Notes under the pieces: model-generated
Databases searched by the model: none
The model's input: only the letters and a program-made list of their open reading frames with translations
What the model was told of the DNA's origin: nothing
Source of the DNA: Candidatus Poribacteria bacterium
Lineage (GTDB): Bacteria > Poribacteria > WGA-4E > WGA-3G
DNA: 64,000 bases
Direction of reading: 5' to 3'
NCBI GenBank assembly: GCA_028820845.1
Contig: JAPPII010000101.1
Location: forward strand, 27,591 to 91,590
Translations under genes and position numbers: made by a program
Part shown: one piece after another, positions 4,383-58,962 of the stretch
Layout: each line of letters opens with the position of its first letter
Numbering within the stretch: position 1 is the first letter of the stretch

Positions 4383-5030
4383 TTACGCACAACGCTTCTG
4401 AAGTTCCTCCCAAAGCGTGTCTACCTGTTGCTGAAGTTCAGCAAGCGTCCCCGCATTCTTTATCACAACATCGGCGTATGTGACTTTCTCGGTGAGCGGC
4501 ATCTGGGCATCAATTCGTGCTTGGACATCACTTTTGGTAAGCGATCTACCTTGTGCAATGCTGCGATCCAAAGTGCGTTGCACTTGTGTTGCCGTTGGTG
4601 CTGTCACAACGACTATCAGATCAACGGTATCATAAGCACCAGCTTCAATGAGGAGCGGCGCGTCAAGCAGCACAATACAATTTGGGTCTTCCGTAACGAG
4701 TTGGCGGGCGCGTGCGCGTGAACGCTGGATAATTAACGGATGCAGGATGCGATTGAGTTGTTCCCGAGCGGCTTTGTCTGTAAAAACAATAGCACCCAGT
4801 TTTTTCCGACTGACATCCCCAGTATCTTCGAGTATCCCCTGTCCAAATGTATTAATTAGAACGTTAATAACCGGACTATCTGCTTTGAGGAGTTCGTGTC
4901 CAATTTCATCAGCATTGATTGGAATCGCACCTTTTTCAGCAAGAAGATCGGAGACAGTCGTCTTTCCGCAGGCGATTCCACCCGTTATCCCGACAATGAT
5001 ACCACGTTCGCGGTGTTTTTCGGTTCTCAT
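4383..5030 (-). CDS. coaE: Dephospho-CoA kinase
   Basis: CoaE phosphorylates the 3'-hydroxyl of dephospho-CoA, the last step of coenzyme A synthesis. The P-loop GITGGIACGKTT, the INADEIGHELL segment and the LLDAPLLIEAGAYD stretch are all typical. I place the start at the ATG at 5030, giving 215 residues and beginning MRTEKHRERG just before the P-loop strand. The open frame continues upstream for 44 codons, but that part is not family-like and runs over the promoter of the divergent exporter gene. No partner gene is evident. Confidence 0.92.
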   Translation of the reverse strand: MRTEKHRERGIIVGITGGIACGKTTVSDLLAEKGAIPINADEIGHELLKADSPVINVLINTFGQGILEDTGDVSRKKLGAIVFTDKAAREQLNRILHPLIIQRSRARARQLVTEDPNCIVLLDAPLLIEAGAYDTVDLIVVVTAPTATQVQRTLDRSIAQGRSLTKSDVQARIDAQMPLTEKVTYADVVIKNAGTLAELQQQVDTLWEELQKRCA

Positions 5031-5141
5031 ACCGTTGAGTGTATACCATCCGCTGAAATTTGTCAATCCTATCTTCTGTAAGAACGATTTCCCAATTCTA
5101 ACTCTTACCCACAACCTACAACTCATAACCCTTAAAAATCC

Positions 5142-5170
5142 TTGACTTGATTTCAGGGTCATGCTATAAT
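5142..5170 (+). promoter_or_regulatory. Sigma70-type promoter for the ABC exporter pair
   Basis: TTGACT (5142-5147) and TATAAT (5165-5170) are spaced by 17 bases and lie 60 bases before the GTG start at 5231. Confidence 0.75.
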
Positions 5171-5230
5171 GCCCGACAATCCGCAGTGTTTTTTATACGA
5201 AGAACCAGTTTATATTCGGGATGAGACAAA

Positions 5231-6997
5231 GTGCACGAAAAAGATAATCCCAATTTAGAAAGAGTACCCTTCCGGCAATACGCCGCACTCCTTTCACAAT
5301 ACCTCAGACCGCAGTGGCTCCGTGTCACGCTGCTCGCTGTATTTATGTTCGGTGGGATCGGTCTAAACCTTGTCAATCCGCAAATTATCCGTTATTTTAT
5401 TGACACCGCAAAAGCCGGCGGCGCGACACGCAACCTCATCATCGCCGGTTGTATATTCCTTGCGATTGGATTTGTTCGGCAACTGGTGATTTTAGTCAGT
5501 TCTTATTTGGGGCAGGATGTCGGATGGCGCGCCACGAATCAGATGCGCGAAGACCTTGCCGACCATTGTCTGAACTTGGATATGTCTTTCCATCATGAAT
5601 ACACGCCCGGTGAAATGGTCGAGCGCGTTGATGGCGATACCACTGCACTCTCGAACTTTTTCTCTGAATTTGTGCTTCAGGTGATTGGGAGTTTCATATT
5701 TCTCATCGGTGTCCTGATTTTGGTTGCCCGAGAAGATTGGCGTATCGGTGTTGCACTCACGGTTTTTGTAATTATTGCTGTATGGGTCTACAATCTCACT
5801 CGGAACATTGCTGTCCCGCTCTATGCCGCTGAACGCGAGGGCTACTCAAGACTTTTTGGATTTCTTGAAGAACGGTTGATCGGAATCGAAGATTTCCGAA
5901 CCAACGGCGGGGTCGGCTACACAATGGATCGGTTTTACGACGTCAATCGCGATGTATACGGGCGCGCCGTGAAAGCACATGTGATGGGCGAAGTTTTACG
6001 AATGATTAGCGGCGTTTTGTTTGCCTTAGGGAACGCCTTGGCAATGGGAATGGGGATTTATCTCTATCAAAGAGGGGTCTTCACAATCGGGACTGTCTTC
6101 CTCGTTTTCCAATACACAGCGATGCTCCGGCGCCCCCTCTACATGATTAACCGTCAGATTAACGAGCTCCAACGGGCGACTGCCGGATTGAAACGGATTG
6201 AGGCACTCTATCGCAGAACCACGAAAATAGCGGACGGCACCGAAGATCTGCCCGGATCAGATGCACTCGGTATCGACTTTGAACGCGTCAGATTTAGTTA
6301 CACCGGAGATGAAGTGGTATTGAAGGATGTTTCGTTCCAACTATCGCCGGGGAAATCGCTTGGGCTGTTAGGACGCACAGGCAGTGGTAAGACGACAATC
6401 ACCCGTCTCCTGTTCCGGCTCTACGAGGTTAATCAAGGACAGATTCGCGTCGGTGGTAAGCCAATTGAGAAAATTCAACTTGAGGCTTTGCGAAGCCAGA
6501 TTGGGATGGTCACACAGGATGTTCAACTCTTCAATGCGACTGTACGCGAGAATCTAACCCTCTTTGATGCCACAATTCCCGATGACCAGATTTTGTCGGT
6601 TGTTGAAGAACTGGAGCTGTCTGATTGGTATAGAGGTTTACCGAATGGACTTGATACGATGCTTGAAGATACTGGGCTTTCCGCTGGTGAAGCACAGCTT
6701 CTCGCCTTTGCGCGCGTCTTTCTCAAAGACCCACGGCTTGTCATTCTTGACGAACCCTCCTCAAGACTTGACCCGGCGACTGAACAGCGAATTGACCGAG
6801 CCGTCCAGCGGTTATTGAGAGGGCGAACGAGTATTATTATTGCCCATCGTTTGGGAACCGTTCAACAGGTAGACGATATTATGATTCTTGCCGATGGCGA
6901 AATCCAAGAATACGGTGAACGCCAGCAACTCGTCCGCAATCCTGATTCGGTCTTCTCAGGACTCCTAAAGACAGGATTAGAGGAGGTAACGCAATGA
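5231..6997 (+). CDS. ABC exporter half-transporter, consensus-Walker subunit
   Basis: This 588-residue protein has an N-terminal six-helix exporter domain (about residues 25-310) and a C-terminal ATPase domain. Walker A is GRTGSGKT (about 381-388), Walker B is LVILDEP with the catalytic Glu (about 508), and the H-loop is IIIAHRLG. Its own signature is LSAGE (about 483-487) rather than LSGGQ. The start is GTG, since the ATG ten bases upstream runs into a stop. It overlaps the next gene by four bases. The paired proteins form a heterodimeric exporter in which this subunit supplies the catalytic Glu of the active ATP site and the weakened signature of the inactive one. The exported substrate is not evident. 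Confidence 0.88.
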
Positions 6998-51835: not shown

Positions 51836-53206
51836 TTAGAAAAACGTCAAATACGGCTTATCATTTATCTCTCGCCATAGCAGCACTGCGAGTTCACGCG
51901 CGTGGTAATCGCCCCACATCGAAGCCTCTCCACACGGAATCTTCCGACCTTCCGGCACATAGTCCCAGCCGTTCGGACGGTGGTACACCGAATGTAACAA
52001 CAATCCCTGATGTGTATCAGATTCAGACAGATATGGTTCAGCGAAGAGCGTTTGGGCGACCGTTAGACCGGCTTGATAGTAGGCGTTTCCTGCGTCTGGT
52101 TCACCGTGTTTTTTGAGGTAATTGCCGAGTCGGATTAACCCTTGTGCCGCGATGGCTGCGGCGGAACTATCCACGGGTTCAAGATCATTGTACGGATTCG
52201 CAGGCACAGCCAAATAATCACCAAGTCCCGATAAACCCGGGGCACCCGTATCCCAATACGGAATCCCATCTTGAGCAGTGTTTTCAATATAGAAATCTGC
52301 AGTGGCTTCTGCAGCCTTGCGCATGTGTGCTGTTGCCAGCGCGTATCCCCCGTAGGGTTCGAGTTCGTCTTCAGAGAGTGTGTCAAAGAATTCGAGTTGC
52401 TCAGCATAACCTGTAATAATCCATGCCAACCCGCGTGTCCATGTCGTAAAGGGTGAATATCCCTGCTGCGTACTCGGACAGCGATAGTTTCCGTCGTTGG
52501 TGTTGAAGATAGATTCATGCACAACCCGTCCACGTAAATCAAACGCATCACGTCCTTCGCCATAGTAGACATTATAGGCTGCCGTTGTCTGGGAGTGCTG
52601 GAGGAGACGTTCCATCAGGCTAATAGCGACATCGCCTTCACCCATGAGTACCGCGCCAAGCGTATGTCCGAGTGCTAAAGCACGCAGGGAACGGATTGTG
52701 TCCGAAAAGAGCGAATGCGGTCCGTTGAAAGAAGCGATATACCCGCTCCCATCTTTTATCTGGGTCCAGCGACTCGCTTGCACAGCGGCGGAGGCTTTTA
52801 ATGCAAGTTCGTAAAAATCCATCTCGCTATCGTTCCACGGAATCACACCCTCTCGCATCAGTCGGCGGAGGTTTCCGTAAGTCGAGACGTTGTTGAACCC
52901 ATGGTCATGCACACCGATATGTGTGACGTGCGGTGCCATCTTTTCAATCGTATTCCGTCTGCCGATTTCAAGGAACTGCTCATCACCGGTGGCATCGAAT
53001 TGGAGGATAGCGGAACCGAATTGGAAACCCTGTGTCCACTCCGTCCAACCGCGTGTTGTATAGATGCCAGCAACGGTGAAGACCGGTGTGCCTTTTTCAG
53101 AGGGCCACGTGTCCTCAATGGCTAAAATCTTTTGACCTGAGCATTCAAAAAGTTTCTCAATTTGAGGTTTCAGGTCGGTGATGTGCAATGAATCATTTAT
53201 CTGCAT
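51836..53206 (-). CDS. GH88-type unsaturated glucuronyl hydrolase
   Basis: A 456-residue alpha6/alpha6-barrel enzyme. HDHGFNN, GIPYWDTGAPG, VDSSAAAIAAQGL and CGEASMWGDYHARELAVLLW are all GH88 marks; the Asp in the DSSA segment and the earlier DHG Asp are the likely catalytic pair. GH88 enzymes remove unsaturated uronic acids from oligosaccharides left by lyases, such as chondroitin, hyaluronan or pectin fragments. With the sulfatase at the window's end it fits the breakdown of sulfated host glycans. No signal peptide is seen, so it acts on imported oligosaccharides in the cytoplasm. Confidence 0.85.
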   Translation of the reverse strand: MQINDSLHITDLKPQIEKLFECSGQKILAIEDTWPSEKGTPVFTVAGIYTTRGWTEWTQGFQFGSAILQFDATGDEQFLEIGRRNTIEKMAPHVTHIGVHDHGFNNVSTYGNLRRLMREGVIPWNDSEMDFYELALKASAAVQASRWTQIKDGSGYIASFNGPHSLFSDTIRSLRALALGHTLGAVLMGEGDVAISLMERLLQHSQTTAAYNVYYGEGRDAFDLRGRVVHESIFNTNDGNYRCPSTQQGYSPFTTWTRGLAWIITGYAEQLEFFDTLSEDELEPYGGYALATAHMRKAAEATADFYIENTAQDGIPYWDTGAPGLSGLGDYLAVPANPYNDLEPVDSSAAAIAAQGLIRLGNYLKKHGEPDAGNAYYQAGLTVAQTLFAEPYLSESDTHQGLLLHSVYHRPNGWDYVPEGRKIPCGEASMWGDYHARELAVLLWREINDKPYLTFF

Positions 53207-53846: not shown

Positions 53847-53875
53847 TTGCACGATTGCTGACTTTTTGCTATAAT
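53847..53875 (+). promoter_or_regulatory. Promoter for the EF-Tu-like gene
   Basis: TTGCAC (53847-53852) and TATAAT (53870-53875), 17 bases apart, 47 bases before the ATG. The -10 box is perfect and the -35 box partial. Confidence 0.65.
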
Positions 53876-53922
53876 GACACAGGTTTCGTAGGCGAAATAT
53901 TATTTCCGTTAGGAGAGAAGAG

Positions 53923-55083
53923 ATGATAGAAAAAAAAGAATATACACATAATAGACTACCTATCTGTACCCTCGGTGCAGATGGACACGGTAAAACAACG
54001 TTAACCGCGGCGATGGCGGAGGTCATCTCAAGAATCGGCGCAATTCATACGGACGGAGACACCGATTTTGAAGCACAATCCCCGATTCATCATCCCATTC
54101 GAGAAGGCGTTGGTATTACCTACCGTACGATTGCCTATGAAACCAGTGGCAAATTTTATACCCAAATCGACTGCGAGATGTCCTCAGATATCGTTAAAAT
54201 GTTGATTAGTGGTTCACCGAGAATTCAGGGCGCGATTTGGGTGGTGAATGCTGTCGAGGGTGTTACAGCGGACTCCGATGCACATCTCCGACTCGCTAAT
54301 CAGCTGCCTCTTCCAAAGGTATTGCCCTTTCTTAATACAGGGGGTGTTCCAGAAGATGATGAAATCGTAGACATCTGCAAACAAGAAATGCACGAACTCC
54401 TGAACGCGTATGGAGATGGAAAAAGTACGACACCAATAATCGTCGGTGACGCGCAAAAGGCGTTAGACTACAAAGGGAACCGGATTACCTCTTCCCAATG
54501 GCAGCCGATTGTTGATTTGATTGTCGCGATGAACAGTGTAATGCCTGCACCCGTGAATATCCAACGCTTGCCCCTCATTATGCCAATTTATGAAATTACT
54601 GACGAAACGAAAGAGAGCGTGTCCGTGCGTGGTGAAATTATACAGGGACAACTCGCTGTTGGACAGGCAGTAGATATTGTCGGTAAGGGGGACAGGATCA
54701 AAACACGGGTTGTCGGTATAAAGGAGCGTGAAGTATCTGTCGAATCTGAACCAGATTGGCTGTCTGTCGGACAAGTACTTTGTACACCGAAGACTGTCAA
54801 GTCACATGCTGAGTTTACTGCCCTTATCTATCTCTTGACGTTTGAAGAGAGCGGCACACATATCCCGCTTATTGAAAATGATAGACCCGATATCTACCTA
54901 TGGGGTGTTGATATGCCAGCACACCTACACCTTCCACCCGAACTTGCCCTTGTTACATCCGGGACTTATGCCCATGTCACGCTTGTGCTTGACCTTCCGT
55001 TGGTAATGGAGATCGGCACTCGGTTTGAAGTAAAGAAGATGGGTGTACGGATCGGGTTTGGTGTTGTGACAAGCGTAACCTAA
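53923..55083 (+). CDS. Degenerate EF-Tu paralogue
   Basis: A 386-residue protein that aligns with EF-Tu over its whole length, including domain 2 (MPIYEITDETKESVSVRG) and domain 3 (FTALIYLLTFEESGTHIPL and the GVVTSV end). The P-loop is kept as GADGHGKT at 18-25, the same positions as GHVDHGKT in E. coli. Other GTPase motifs are lost: DCPGH reads DCEMS (83-87), removing the catalytic His and the DxxG Gly; NKxD reads NTGG (138-141); and SAL reads DAQ. It therefore cannot be a normal GTPase or elongation factor. AGGAGAG precedes the ATG. It stands alone with its own promoter. A role as a decoy, tRNA binder or regulator is inference. Confidence 0.82.
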   Translation: MIEKKEYTHNRLPICTLGADGHGKTTLTAAMAEVISRIGAIHTDGDTDFEAQSPIHHPIREGVGITYRTIAYETSGKFYTQIDCEMSSDIVKMLISGSPRIQGAIWVVNAVEGVTADSDAHLRLANQLPLPKVLPFLNTGGVPEDDEIVDICKQEMHELLNAYGDGKSTTPIIVGDAQKALDYKGNRITSSQWQPIVDLIVAMNSVMPAPVNIQRLPLIMPIYEITDETKESVSVRGEIIQGQLAVGQAVDIVGKGDRIKTRVVGIKEREVSVESEPDWLSVGQVLCTPKTVKSHAEFTALIYLLTFEESGTHIPLIENDRPDIYLWGVDMPAHLHLPPELALVTSGTYAHVTLVLDLPLVMEIGTRFEVKKMGVRIGFGVVTSVT

Positions 55084-55111: not shown

Positions 55112-56365
55112 TCAGTCCATTTTTCGTTGATCGGTAAATCGCTTGGACTTCAGTTCATATCTCGGTAGTGTTCCAAGTGGCACCGATTGAACGACAGCTC
55201 GCAGACCTAAAGCATCTCGGATAGCTGTTGTCACAGCATTGACAGTATCGGTCGGATTTGGATTTGTGGACTCAATCTGAATTTCGAGTTCGTCAAGCGT
55301 CTCTGTACCGTAAGCACGGACAGCGAATTCTTGGACCTCTGGAAACTTGAGGATAATGTTTTCAATAGTGGCGGGATACACGTTCAAACCGCGAATGATT
55401 AGGGCATCATCGAGTCTACCGGTAACACCGCCATCAAGGACACGACTCTCTCTCCCACATTCACACGGTGCTGACTTGAGTTTAACGTAGTCTCCTGTCC
55501 TATAACGGATGACCGGCATGCCAATGCGCCCTAAATTGGTGATGACTAATTCTCCCGCGTCTGTTGGATTGCCGGTCTCTGGATCAAGCACTTCACAAAT
55601 AAATTCGTTTTCGTTGAGATGGACACCCGCCTGTGGTTCGCACATAACTCCCCACGCACCGACCTCCGTCGCGCCAGCGTGGTCATAAGCCTTCGCACCC
55701 CAAGCATTTTCAATCCTTTGTTTTGTTGCAGGTAAGCTGGCTCCGGGTTCACCCGCATGGATGGTCACTCGGACCGAAGATTCTTCACTGAGATTAACAC
55801 CTTCTTGTGCTGCGACTTCGGCAAGCCGTAGTGCGTAAGTCGGTGTGGAGATTAGCACAGTTACTTCATTGCTCAGAATAGCGCGAATGCGTTGCTCAGA
55901 GGTAAAGCCGCCGTTCGCGATTATGAGCGCACCGAGTTGTTGTGCACCGTGGTATGCACTCCAAAAGCCGATAAAAGGACCAAACGAAAAAGCGGGCATG
56001 AGCCGATCTGCGAATGTCACGCCTGCTGCGTCGTAAATTTCTCGCCAACATTTACCCCACCAGTCCCACGATTCTGCTGTATCTAACCATCGTAAAGGTG
56101 AACCGGTTGTTCCTGATGTGCGGTGCAGACAGGTGTACTGTTCCAGTGGAAAGGTGAGATTTGTACCGTAAGGGGGATATGATACTTGGTCTGCACTGAG
56201 TTCTTCCTTTGTAGTGAAAGGCAGGTGCTGATAATCGCTCAGGGTCTGCACATCGTTTGGACGTGTAATCCCGACTTCGGTAAGTTTTCGTCGATAAAAA
56301 GCGTTTGTCTCTAACACTGGAGCGAGCATCTCGCGAAAGCGTTGTAATTGTGTGCTTGTATCCAT
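55112..56365 (-). CDS. Phenylacetate-CoA ligase-like AMP-binding enzyme
   Basis: A 417-residue adenylate-forming enzyme of the PaaK type. The ATP motif is RTSGTTGSPL, with DHAGATEVGAWG, YRTGDYVKL and RGLNVYPATIENIILKFPEV as later landmarks. PaaK joins an aromatic or other acid to coenzyme A through an acyl-AMP. The length is typical. It starts three bases after the stop of the HemW-like gene, so the two are coupled. Which acid it uses is unknown; pairing with a radical SAM enzyme suggests a dedicated pathway rather than plain phenylacetate use. Confidence 0.85.
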   Translation of the reverse strand: MDTSTQLQRFREMLAPVLETNAFYRRKLTEVGITRPNDVQTLSDYQHLPFTTKEELSADQVSYPPYGTNLTFPLEQYTCLHRTSGTTGSPLRWLDTAESWDWWGKCWREIYDAAGVTFADRLMPAFSFGPFIGFWSAYHGAQQLGALIIANGGFTSEQRIRAILSNEVTVLISTPTYALRLAEVAAQEGVNLSEESSVRVTIHAGEPGASLPATKQRIENAWGAKAYDHAGATEVGAWGVMCEPQAGVHLNENEFICEVLDPETGNPTDAGELVITNLGRIGMPVIRYRTGDYVKLKSAPCECGRESRVLDGGVTGRLDDALIIRGLNVYPATIENIILKFPEVQEFAVRAYGTETLDELEIQIESTNPNPTDTVNAVTTAIRDALGLRAVVQSVPLGTLPRYELKSKRFTDQRKMD

Positions 56366-56368
56366 GTC

Positions 56369-57709
56369 TTAGGTGTATCGTGTGTTCTGGTATTCCGGGG
56401 CATAGAATGCTGGAAGGAGGCTATCGACTTGGAGCAGCCCGCGTTGGGTCAATTGAATCTCGTCTAACTCGGCGTTGACGTGCAGCATGCCGTCGTTCTG
56501 CAGTTTATCATAGGGTTCAGCGTAAAGCGTGAGGATATCAGCATTGAACTTTGTCTTGAAGTAAGACGGTCTGATGCTTCCGAGTTTGAGTTGTAGGATC
56601 ATCTCTCGCGTCAACCGTTCCGCTTCCGTTGGCCGCAGCGCGCGATAGACAGGAAATCTGTCTTCTTCAAGGTGGCGGAGGTAATCTCCCCATGAGGGGG
56701 CGTTTTGAAAATGAACGCCGCTGAGGTGCGAAAAAGAGGCGACCCCTGTGCCTATCATATCACTTCCTTGCCACACTGCATCGCGATAGACAAACTGGCA
56801 CGGTTTATTCTTCTTAACCACTGTATACGCACTGGATTGCGCATAACCGGCTCGCGCAAATTGTTCAAAGGCGTATTGATGCCATTCGCGCTTGAGTTTC
56901 CAATCTGCTACGGGAAGTGTATCACCACCGAGGATATCTTTAGAATAGACCGTGTTGAACGGCAGCTCCAACTGATAAACAGTGACACTATCTGGTTCAA
57001 GCTCAATTGTCTTGCTGACGGTTTCTCGCCAGCTTTCCCACGTTTCACCTATCATACCTGAGATGAGATCGATGTTGACTTGGTCGAATGCTAATGTTTT
57101 TATCCACGGCACAATGCGATAAACCTCTTTGGAGAGATGTGCTCTACCGTTTTCGGCAAGAATCTCATCGTTCAGATTTTCAACACCGAGACTCAATCGG
57201 GTTACACCAATCTCTTTGATTGCATCTACTTTCTTCTCTGTCAAGGTGCCGGGTTCGCATTCAAACGCCACTTCTTCAGCAGCATCCCACGGCATTGCCC
57301 GTTTTACGCTGTCAACGAGAGCAGTGAGGTGTTTGACGCTAATATAGGAAGGCGTACCCCCACCGAAATAGACGAATCTCAGGGGTCTACCGGCGATCGC
57401 GGGTTGCTTGCTGTAAAGTTCGATCTCTTTCGCAAGTGCGTTCAAGTACGTGTCAATTTCCGAACTGTTTTTATCCGTATAGACTCGAAAATAGCAGAAT
57501 TTGCACCGTTTACGACAGAAGGGAATATGGAGGTAAAGCCCAAGCGTTGCGTCGGGTCGGGGCTGTTCACCGAGCATTCGCGCCACTTCTGGCACATCTG
57601 ACTCGCTCCAAGTGGAATACGGTGGGTAGTTTGAAACGAAAACACTCCCGACGGTCGTCTGTTTTGAATCTATTCCTGCTGTTGCGGGTTCCGGTTTTGT
57701 TTCAGGCAT
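56369..57709 (-). CDS. Radical SAM protein, HemW/coproporphyrinogen-oxidase-like
   Basis: A 446-residue radical SAM enzyme. LYLHIPFCRKRCKFCYFRVY holds the CxxxCxxC cluster site preceded by HIPFC, as in HemN/HemW. RFVYFGGGTPSYI and LSLGVENLNDEILAENGRAH follow, and MIGETWESWRETV matches the GLPGQT-like region. The C-terminal HemN_C-like part includes RALRPTEAERLTREMILQL. The first 30 residues are an unfamiliar extension. HemW carries haem; HemN makes protoporphyrinogen. The link to a CoA ligase next door argues for a different job, perhaps methyl transfer or radical coupling in a small pathway. Confidence 0.83.
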   Translation of the reverse strand: MPETKPEPATAGIDSKQTTVGSVFVSNYPPYSTWSESDVPEVARMLGEQPRPDATLGLYLHIPFCRKRCKFCYFRVYTDKNSSEIDTYLNALAKEIELYSKQPAIAGRPLRFVYFGGGTPSYISVKHLTALVDSVKRAMPWDAAEEVAFECEPGTLTEKKVDAIKEIGVTRLSLGVENLNDEILAENGRAHLSKEVYRIVPWIKTLAFDQVNIDLISGMIGETWESWRETVSKTIELEPDSVTVYQLELPFNTVYSKDILGGDTLPVADWKLKREWHQYAFEQFARAGYAQSSAYTVVKKNKPCQFVYRDAVWQGSDMIGTGVASFSHLSGVHFQNAPSWGDYLRHLEEDRFPVYRALRPTEAERLTREMILQLKLGSIRPSYFKTKFNADILTLYAEPYDKLQNDGMLHVNAELDEIQLTQRGLLQVDSLLPAFYAPEYQNTRYT

Positions 57710-57807
57710 AATGTTTGCTCCTTTGCCTTAAATATACTTTGACATCTTCCCAATTCTATGTATCGGCTGAAAAATTTTCTCTTAATGAATCTATCCTTGA
57801 AAGTTCA

Positions 57808-58962
57808 TTATTCAAAACAGTAGAGGATTCCATCTTCGCTCCCAATGTAAATCTTGCCATCGGCTACACTCGGTGAAGCGACAATTGATGAACCCGTTGC
57901 GAATTCCCACACCGATTCTCCTGTGGACACATCTAAAGCGATGAACGTCCCGCGGGTCGTCCCAAGAAAGACACGTTTGCCGACAACAACAGCCGATGAC
58001 TCAATACGGGATTTGGTTGTATAGGTCCATAACGATTCTCCTGTCTCAGACGAAAGCGCGTGCACTATTTTATCCCGTCCTCCGATGATTACCATATCTT
58101 CAGTCAGGGCAGCTGAAGCGAAAAACGGAAATCTCCGTTTCGGGTGGCGATACCGCCAGGCAATCTCTCCAATATCTAAGTTGACTGCTAATATTTCAGC
58201 ACCGTACGTGCCGCAATAGATACGATTTTGCGAAATCGCAGGGCTGGCACCGACATACGCGCCGAGGTCAACTTGCTGTACCTGTGTGCCATCATTGATG
58301 TTAAGAACGCGAAGGTAACTATCGCATCCAGTAACAATGGCGAAACGCTGCGCGTTATCAGATTCACTTGCGGACTGGGTCCAAATCCCAGGTGTGCCGT
58401 GGACATACCCCTCGGTCTCAAATTTCCAGATGAGTTCCCCGTTTTCTCGGTTGAGGCAGTAGAGAAATCCATCATACGAACCGAATAACACACGGTCTCC
58501 GGTAAAATTGGCTGATGATATGATTTCACCTTCCGTCCTAAACTGCCATTTCGTTTCTTGGGTGCTAATATCTATTGCATGGAAGATACCTTCGCTGTCC
58601 CCGAGGTAGATTACACCGTTATGGATAGATGGAGATGCTTTAATAGCACCGGTTGCTTGGTACATCCATCTTTTTTCACCCGTTTGTGCATCAATCGCGT
58701 AGAGAAAGCCGTTTAACGCACCAACGTACACGGTGCCATCAACGACTGTAGCGGTTGACTCAATCATATCTCCTGCCTGAAAAGTCCAAAGCAGTTGCGG
58801 GTTTTCGGAAAGTTCAGCGTTGGTAACACCCGTAAGCTGCGGATTCCCGCGAAAAGTTGCCCAATCAGCAAAAGTTGCTTGTCCAATAAAGAGCAGTAGA
58901 AATAGGACGTTTTTTACGGTAAATGTCCATACAAAACGGTTTATATTAATAGGCTGCTTCAT
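57808..58962 (-). CDS. Exported PQQ-like beta-propeller protein
   Basis: A 384-residue secreted protein built of repeats such as GTVYVGALNGFLYAIDAQTG and GEKRWMYQATG, each a blade of an eight-bladed PQQ/BamB-type propeller. The N-terminal helix VLFLLLFIGQATFA is a signal peptide. There is no extra domain and no dehydrogenase active-site pattern that I can identify, so a structural or BamB-like binding role is likely. It overlaps the end of the alcohol dehydrogenase gene by 17 bases, so the two are one transcript. Confidence 0.82.
   Translation of the reverse strand: MKQPININRFVWTFTVKNVLFLLLFIGQATFADWATFRGNPQLTGVTNAELSENPQLLWTFQAGDMIESTATVVDGTVYVGALNGFLYAIDAQTGEKRWMYQATGAIKASPSIHNGVIYLGDSEGIFHAIDISTQETKWQFRTEGEIISSANFTGDRVLFGSYDGFLYCLNRENGELIWKFETEGYVHGTPGIWTQSASESDNAQRFAIVTGCDSYLRVLNINDGTQVQQVDLGAYVGASPAISQNRIYCGTYGAEILAVNLDIGEIAWRYRHPKRRFPFFASAALTEDMVIIGGRDKIVHALSSETGESLWTYTTKSRIESSAVVVGKRVFLGTTRGTFIALDVSTGESVWEFATGSSIVASPSVADGKIYIGSEDGILYCFE

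Follow-up and report, generated by a model that had tools for sequence, protein, structure and literature searches.

A putative EF-Tu-derived pseudo-translational GTPase retained across an order of Poribacteria

EF-Tu is among the most constrained of bacterial proteins. Extra EF-Tu copies were nearly identical to one another in a survey of such genes, according to the passages cited here (PMC1780047). The actEF-Tu (EF-Tu3) of actinomycetes is described, in the cited section of its report, as the sole clearly distinct EF-Tu-like subfamily in 1274 bacterial genomes, and it appears to be a drug-resistant, condition-specific translation factor (PMC4342817). In budding yeast, the Hbs1 relative Ski7 is presented, in the cited portion of that work, as a possible pseudo-translational GTPase, with stable GTP binding and an active translational GTPase conformation (PMC4509514). 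Ordinary EF-Tu in its GDP form is also used in ribosome hibernation by Balon, a protein that reads tRNA-contact residues of domain 3, as the cited part of the Balon report describes (PMC10901736). Here we describe an EF-Tu paralog of Poribacteria that has lost most of the GTPase signature.

The paralog is encoded by an open reading frame with an ATG start in the window, by which we mean the whole 64,000-nucleotide stretch of a Poribacteria contig that was analyzed (Table 1). Its 386-amino-acid product is 31% identical to that of the tuf gene of its own genome, where the one normal tuf lies elsewhere and scores 723 bits on the EF-Tu model. By fold, the paralog falls within the EF1-type translational GTPase superfamily, with three domains in the predicted structure and Pfam matches to GTP_EFTU (1.3e-16) and GTP_EFTU_D3 (3.2e-12). 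Its score on the NCBIfam EF-Tu model (TIGR00485) is 205.9 bits, below the cutoff of 522.4 bits for a functional EF-Tu. The protein is acidic, with a pI of 5.13 and a negative net charge.

Table 1. Features of the paralog gene and its upstream signals, in window positions; residue numbers are those of the paralog unless EF-Tu is named.
Feature	Position	Strand	Basis
EF-Tu-derived pseudo-translational GTPase (putative), 386 aa	53923..55083	+	Pfam, NCBIfam, orthologs, predicted fold, tree
-35-like TTGCAC, 17 bases before the -10	53847..53852	+	By eye; upstream alignment of 16 loci; weak match, below the reach of the consensus scan
Extended -10, TGC-TATAAT	53870..53875	+	Upstream alignment; conserved in most of the 16 loci
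Ribosome binding site AGGAGA	53911..53916	+	Conserved; upstream alignment
G1/P-loop GADGHGKT, residues 18-25	53974..53997	+	Pattern in 59/60 orthologs
Switch I segment EGVGIT, residues 61-66; Gly64 at the place of EF-Tu Thr61	54103..54120	+	Thr61 in 0/60
G3 place DCEMS, residues 83-87; EF-Tu Asp80 kept, Pro-Gly-His lost	54169..54183	+	DxxG 1/60, Asp 60/60, His84 43/60
G4 place NTGG, residues 138-141	54334..54345	+	NKxD 2/60
G5 place DAQ, residues 176-178	54448..54456	+	SA 1/60, Asp 57/60
Family-specific stretch Y183..W193, domain 1	54469..54501	+	Y183 and W193 conserved, not in tuf
Domain 2 residues 265-279; EF-Tu Asn273 loop (A76/aminoacyl pocket) deleted	54715..54759	+	Position 273 gapped in 59/60
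Domain 3 signature HIPLIENDRPDIYLWGVD, residues 313-330, in place of the EF-Tu T-stem loop HTPFFKGYRPQFYFRTTD	54859..54912	+	W327 (EF-Tu R333) 60/60, H313 60/60
Domain 3 signature EVKKM, residues 369-373, where domains 1 and 3 of EF-Tu meet	55027..55041	+	K372 (EF-Tu E378) 60/60

A sequence-only reading of this DNA had proposed that the protein keeps the full length and all three domains of EF-Tu, with an exactly placed P-loop, and has lost the G3, G4, and G5 motifs. When the protein was aligned with Poribacteria tufs and E. coli EF-Tu to verify the motif places, this was confirmed: the G1 box is GADGHGKT, and DCEMS, NTGG, and DAQ stand where EF-Tu has DCPGH, NKxD, and SAL. The length and domains also held up, the latter as they appear in the predicted fold. 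Two further losses were not part of that reading, namely, those of the switch-I Thr61 (gone in 60/60 orthologs) and of the domain 2 loop around Asn273 (deleted in 59/60). The set of 60 orthologs leaves out a locus that is near-identical to the window (L032), two contig-end halves from one genome (L084 and L090 in G048), and loci under our own handles that repeat named contigs.

Homologs with the same motif losses make up most of this set, with DxxG present in 1, NKxD in 2, SA in 1, and Thr61 in none of the 60. The P-loop pattern GxxxxGK[ST] is found in 59/60 (Lys24 in 59 and Thr25 in 58), Asp80 in all 60, and Asn135 in 59, and His84 persists in 43. At G5, Ser173 (window positions 54448 to 54450) has become Asp in 57/60 orthologs. 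Because two loci (L072 and L076) combine that Asp with Asp138, and another (L086) has Ser173 with Asp138, the G5 change may have come earlier than the loss of NKxD. The Ser-to-Asp change, which is also seen where NKxD or its Asp remains, could possibly reflect an altered base preference. Among the residues that we take to be EF-Tu contacts with tRNA (H66, R223, F261, Asn273, Gln329, Y331, and R333), H66 and F261 are lost in 60/60 orthologs, R223 in 59/60, and Y331 in 52/60, and the T-stem loop is acidified, with Gln329 replaced by Asp or Glu in 53/60. At the positions that we presume to contact EF-Ts, the alignment gave a mixed picture.

Of the G1 to G5 boxes and switch-I Thr61 that a functional EF-Tu should have, G1 alone is kept. 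The pocket for A76 and the aminoacyl group and the T-stem contacts, at the residues that we assume to form them, are not retained either, with both F261 and R333 found in 0/60 orthologs. To judge from these residues, it is very unlikely that the paralog is a working EF-Tu; a GTPase fold combined with loss of the canonical motifs would make it a pseudoGTPase.

The likeness of the paralog to EF-Tu lies in its ancestry, its length, its three-domain fold, and the place of its P-loop. In contrast to EF-Tu, it lacks Thr61, DxxG, NKxD, SA, and the tRNA pocket, falls short of the TIGR00485 cutoff, and belongs to a separate clade. It resembles actEF-Tu, as the cited section describes that subfamily, in being a bacterial EF-Tu-like paralog clearly distinct from tuf (PMC4342817). 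However, actEF-Tu should still work as EF-Tu, whereas the motifs of the Poribacteria paralog are lost; it has neither the working motifs nor the actinomycete origin of that subfamily, and its matches are only in Poribacteria. With Ski7, as characterized in the cited portion, it would share the position of a translational GTPase paralog that may bind without cycling and does adaptor work (PMC4509514), and the yeast case suggests by analogy that an adaptor path is open to translational GTPases. Unlike Ski7, the paralog derives from bacterial EF-Tu, has lost the guanine-specificity residues, and is modeled in an open form. The EF-Tu(GDP) used by Balon is, in the cited part of that report, an open-form EF-Tu at work outside aminoacyl-tRNA delivery, as the paralog may be, but the domain 3 tRNA-contact positions are changed in the paralog (PMC10901736). 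We found no description of this family in open-license literature searched on EF-Tu paralogs, pseudoGTPases, and Poribacteria EF-Tu.

An AlphaFold model built with 43 aligned orthologs contained all three EF-Tu domains (pLDDT 88.3, pTM 0.83). The closest structures to this model were GDP-form EF-Tu (1efc, 1tui, and 1d8t), with TM values of 0.86 to 0.89, and the GTP form 2c77 matched with a TM of 0.56 at 9.3 Å. VIA-align gave a Z of 43.8 and an rmsd of 2.1 (373 aligned) for 1tui and a Z of 29.7 and an rmsd of 8.1 (351 aligned) for 2c78. The match to the GDP form proves no nucleotide state, because 5opd, a GTP-bound phosphorylated EF-Tu, also reached a TM of 0.85. In addition, the open shape may be a default of the program, since a control on a true tuf gave a poor model (pLDDT 67.1). 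The open, GDP-like shape predicted for the paralog is a hint only.

Close homologs, whose absence from related genomes the sequence-only reading would have counted against its proposal, are present across the order. A profile search covered 84 genomes of the phylum, 72 of them from the window's order (its own genome, 1 of the same species, 36 of the same genus, 20 of the same family, and 14 of the same order), and found the paralog in 70 of these 72, with an internal stop in none of the 70; in G048, contig ends split the gene into two halves. This search found no paralog in G002 (86% complete) and G015 (78% complete). In both, the conserved upstream neighbor adjoins a contig end (in G015 a protease-like gene intervenes, an arrangement that some relatives share), so these absences are probably assembly gaps. 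Outside the order, 1 of 12 genomes of the phylum carries the paralog (G053, locus L086). At E ≤ 1e-88, 70 of 386 genomes matched, comprising 69 in the order plus G053, and none of 303 genomes outside the phylum did so. Weaker pseudo-EF-Tus may exist beyond the phylum, because this limit is strict, having been set to exclude ordinary EF-Tu, and at most 4 candidates were scored per genome. Among named genomes, 40 relatives were found, every one from Poribacteria, presumably those of sponges.

Signs of relaxed selection, which that reading would have taken as pointing to a decaying gene, were looked for and not found: dN/dS ranged from 0.065 to 0.152 in 14 pairs, by Nei-Gojobori counting with our own script on pairs that are not independent of each other. 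These values are similar to those of a neighboring rfaE-type gene (0.037 to 0.158) and about two to three times those of tuf (0.049 to 0.053, 3 pairs). Given purifying selection and orthologs in all but 2 of the order's 72 genomes, the paralog is not a chance open reading frame, and, being held under strong selection, it has probably taken on a new job. The view that the gene is kept open with a promoter was also borne out, as internal stops are absent and, of 16 loci aligned, most share a promoter-like TTGCAC-17-TGCTATAAT arrangement and an AGGAGA ribosome site. Codon choice is ordinary, without the look of high expression (a score of 0.595 on a tuf-based scale, with neighbors at 0.567 to 0.663 and tuf, the reference itself, at 0.769).

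We found 106 positions whose conservation reaches 90% or more in the window's family and likewise in the other families (a definition that excludes L078 and L086), of which 42 are unlike the tuf consensus. These 42 fall mostly in domains 2 and 3 and include Y183, W193, Q241, R258, W279, K290, H313, N319, D320, W327, E369, K371, K372, and M373. Among 12 representatives, mean identity is 45% in switch I, 52% around G3, 55% in domain 1, and 73% in the P-loop, and it is 67% in the domain 3 stretch from 315 to 340 and 69% in domain 2 from 240 to 258. As these alignments read, constraint has left the switch and now lies on domains 2 and 3. A gene that is retained and has conserved residues of its own makes it likely that loss of the GTPase signature came with a new role, as had been proposed.

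In a tree of 48 rows, in which the tufs were those of Poribacteria and E. coli only and L129 was left out, the 28 paralogs form one separate clade with 100/100 support, with L086 basal. Its attachment point, which is weakly supported and reached by a branch of 0.96, lies close to the tufs that other families of the class carry. We take the paralog to be an old EF-Tu duplicate of uncertain exact origin. The basal L086 retains GHFAHGKT, NKID, and SA, and its Thr61, Phe261, and Arg333 are gone. In L078 (G042, 4989-6149) the frame is open, the P-loop is gone, and the branch is 1.55. This P-loop-less member still has 32 of the 42 family-specific residues (our own tally of the listing), so the new residues have survived the loss of the nucleotide site, and it could represent a possible second step of functional change. 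Loss is thus graded across the family: every member has lost tRNA contacts and switch I, and the tree leads us to infer that the guanine boxes went later.

The neighbors of the paralog vary between families, and it stands alone, with no neighbor conserved across families; some families have same-strand genes downstream that are not common to the others. We dropped genome context as a functional hint because of these differences. In G053, a gene for a 522-aa ClpX-like ATPase (L086 1880-3448) lies 219 bp downstream of the paralog. The corresponding ATPase of the window's genome (C62:9071-10633) is distinct from ordinary ClpX and widespread in the phylum, and its gene is 41 to 81 kb from the paralog in 13 genomes of the window's genus (same contig) and up to 1.1 Mb away elsewhere. 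This ATPase was dropped as a linked partner, because its close relatives occur in genomes with and without the paralog and the two genes are far apart. A TGA flagged within the ATPase gene of four genomes is simply its stop codon. On the 3' side of the paralog, the region at window positions 55112 to 58962 has a PaaK-like ligase gene in 7 compared loci, which are from close relatives of the window and mostly also have a HemN-like radical SAM gene and a PQQ-repeat protein. At the same place in 35 other loci stand a HisA-like gene and, for the most part, genes of transport type, these being labels that we assume. The difference between the PaaK-like and HisA-like contents is a rearrangement or insertion within the genus. 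A 456-aa neighbor (window positions 51836 to 53206), which we take to be an unsaturated glucuronyl hydrolase-like protein, is well conserved (dN/dS of 0.026 to 0.060) and had no Pfam or NCBIfam match at the limits used.

Retention, selection, and a new conserved face together point to an adaptor or scaffold. The explanation that we favor, with a probability of roughly 0.6, is that the paralog is a non-switching scaffold derived from EF-Tu, a pseudo-translational GTPase acting through a remodeled domain 2/3 face. Such a protein would retain the three-domain fold and the phosphate-binding P-loop and would have lost the parts for GTP sensing, timing, and hydrolysis as well as the hold on aminoacyl-tRNA. 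Instead of cycling between GTP and GDP, it would stay in a single, probably open conformation, and a nucleotide or phosphate bound at the P-loop may lend stability to the fold without switching it. A protein partner would be bound via W327, H313, N319/D320, E369, K371/K372, R258, and W279 on the domain 2/3 face, and the product of this single stand-alone gene would act in trans. We count the persistence of His84 in most orthologs against the scaffold. Likewise, a pure scaffold would have no need of a functioning nucleotide site, yet the conservation of Lys24/Thr25, Asp80, and Asn135 suggests that this site retains some use. Tentatively, one might also picture an order-wide pseudo-translational GTPase frozen in an EF-Tu(GDP)-like form and now a dedicated regulatory adaptor (for example, toward EF-Ts, the bL12 stalk, ribosome hibernation, or proteostasis); its nucleotide site would then serve structure or sensing only.

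The conserved nucleotide-site residues would also fit a nucleotide sensor with a changed base preference, in which the P-loop and Asp80 hold phosphates, loss of NKxD and the G5 Asp change or remove the preference for guanine, and binding without hydrolysis signals to a partner. The near-universal P-loop, Asp80, Asn135, and G5 Asp and the mixed G5 and Asp138 combinations of L072, L076, and L086 speak for such a sensor. However, the open L078 keeps most family-specific residues without a P-loop, and conservation is among the lowest in the switch regions, through which a signal would have to travel, so that we regard a sensor as doubtful. An RNA-binding regulator, which the sequence-only reading had suggested, or a factor that delivers some unusual tRNA could draw on EF-Tu ancestry and on the invariant Lys pair in domain 3. 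Against this stand the deleted Asn273 loop and the lost H66, R223, F261, and Y331, whose contact roles we presume, together with the acidic T-stem loop and the negative overall charge. RNA binding of the EF-Tu type is thus disfavored, and we consider this reading unlikely.

Kirromycin-type drugs act on EF-Tu, and a normal EF-Tu is also present in the genome, so a decoy for an antibiotic that targets EF-Tu, another earlier suggestion, can be imagined. The positions that we take to be determinants for kirromycin, pulvomycin, and GE2270A (316, 375, 378, 120, 230, 333, and the 273 loop) are replaced in the paralog, however: G316 is S, C, or A in 59/60 orthologs, A375 is E, D, or T in 60/60, E378 is K in 60/60, R230 is absent in 60/60, R333 is W in 60/60, and position 120 is also altered. 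These drugs should therefore not bind it, its codon choice is not like that of a highly expressed gene, and we give the antibiotic decoy hardly any credence. In the toxin form of the decoy idea, the ligand would be a toxin or phage protein that recognizes the conserved fold of EF-Tu; one that reads the shape of domain 2 or 3 could dock on the paralog if the fold is kept as modeled. Yet domain 3 has a remade surface, the gene occurs as a single copy throughout the order with no shared defense-like neighbors, and a two-pattern scan of viral contigs, which is a weak search, found no relative, all of which make a toxin decoy highly improbable. The drift of the G motifs and the long branch of L078 are what a decaying pseudogene might show, but the lack of internal stops in 70 genomes, the low dN/dS, and the conserved promoter and ribosome site refute this for the window's genus and leave it next to no likelihood overall.

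A switchless EF-Tu maintained by selection in a whole order would be the first bacterial EF-Tu-derived pseudoGTPase to our knowledge, as far as the open-license literature searched shows. The natural series from L086, with near-intact motifs, through partial loss to L078, without a P-loop, may indicate what stays useful in a switchless G protein.
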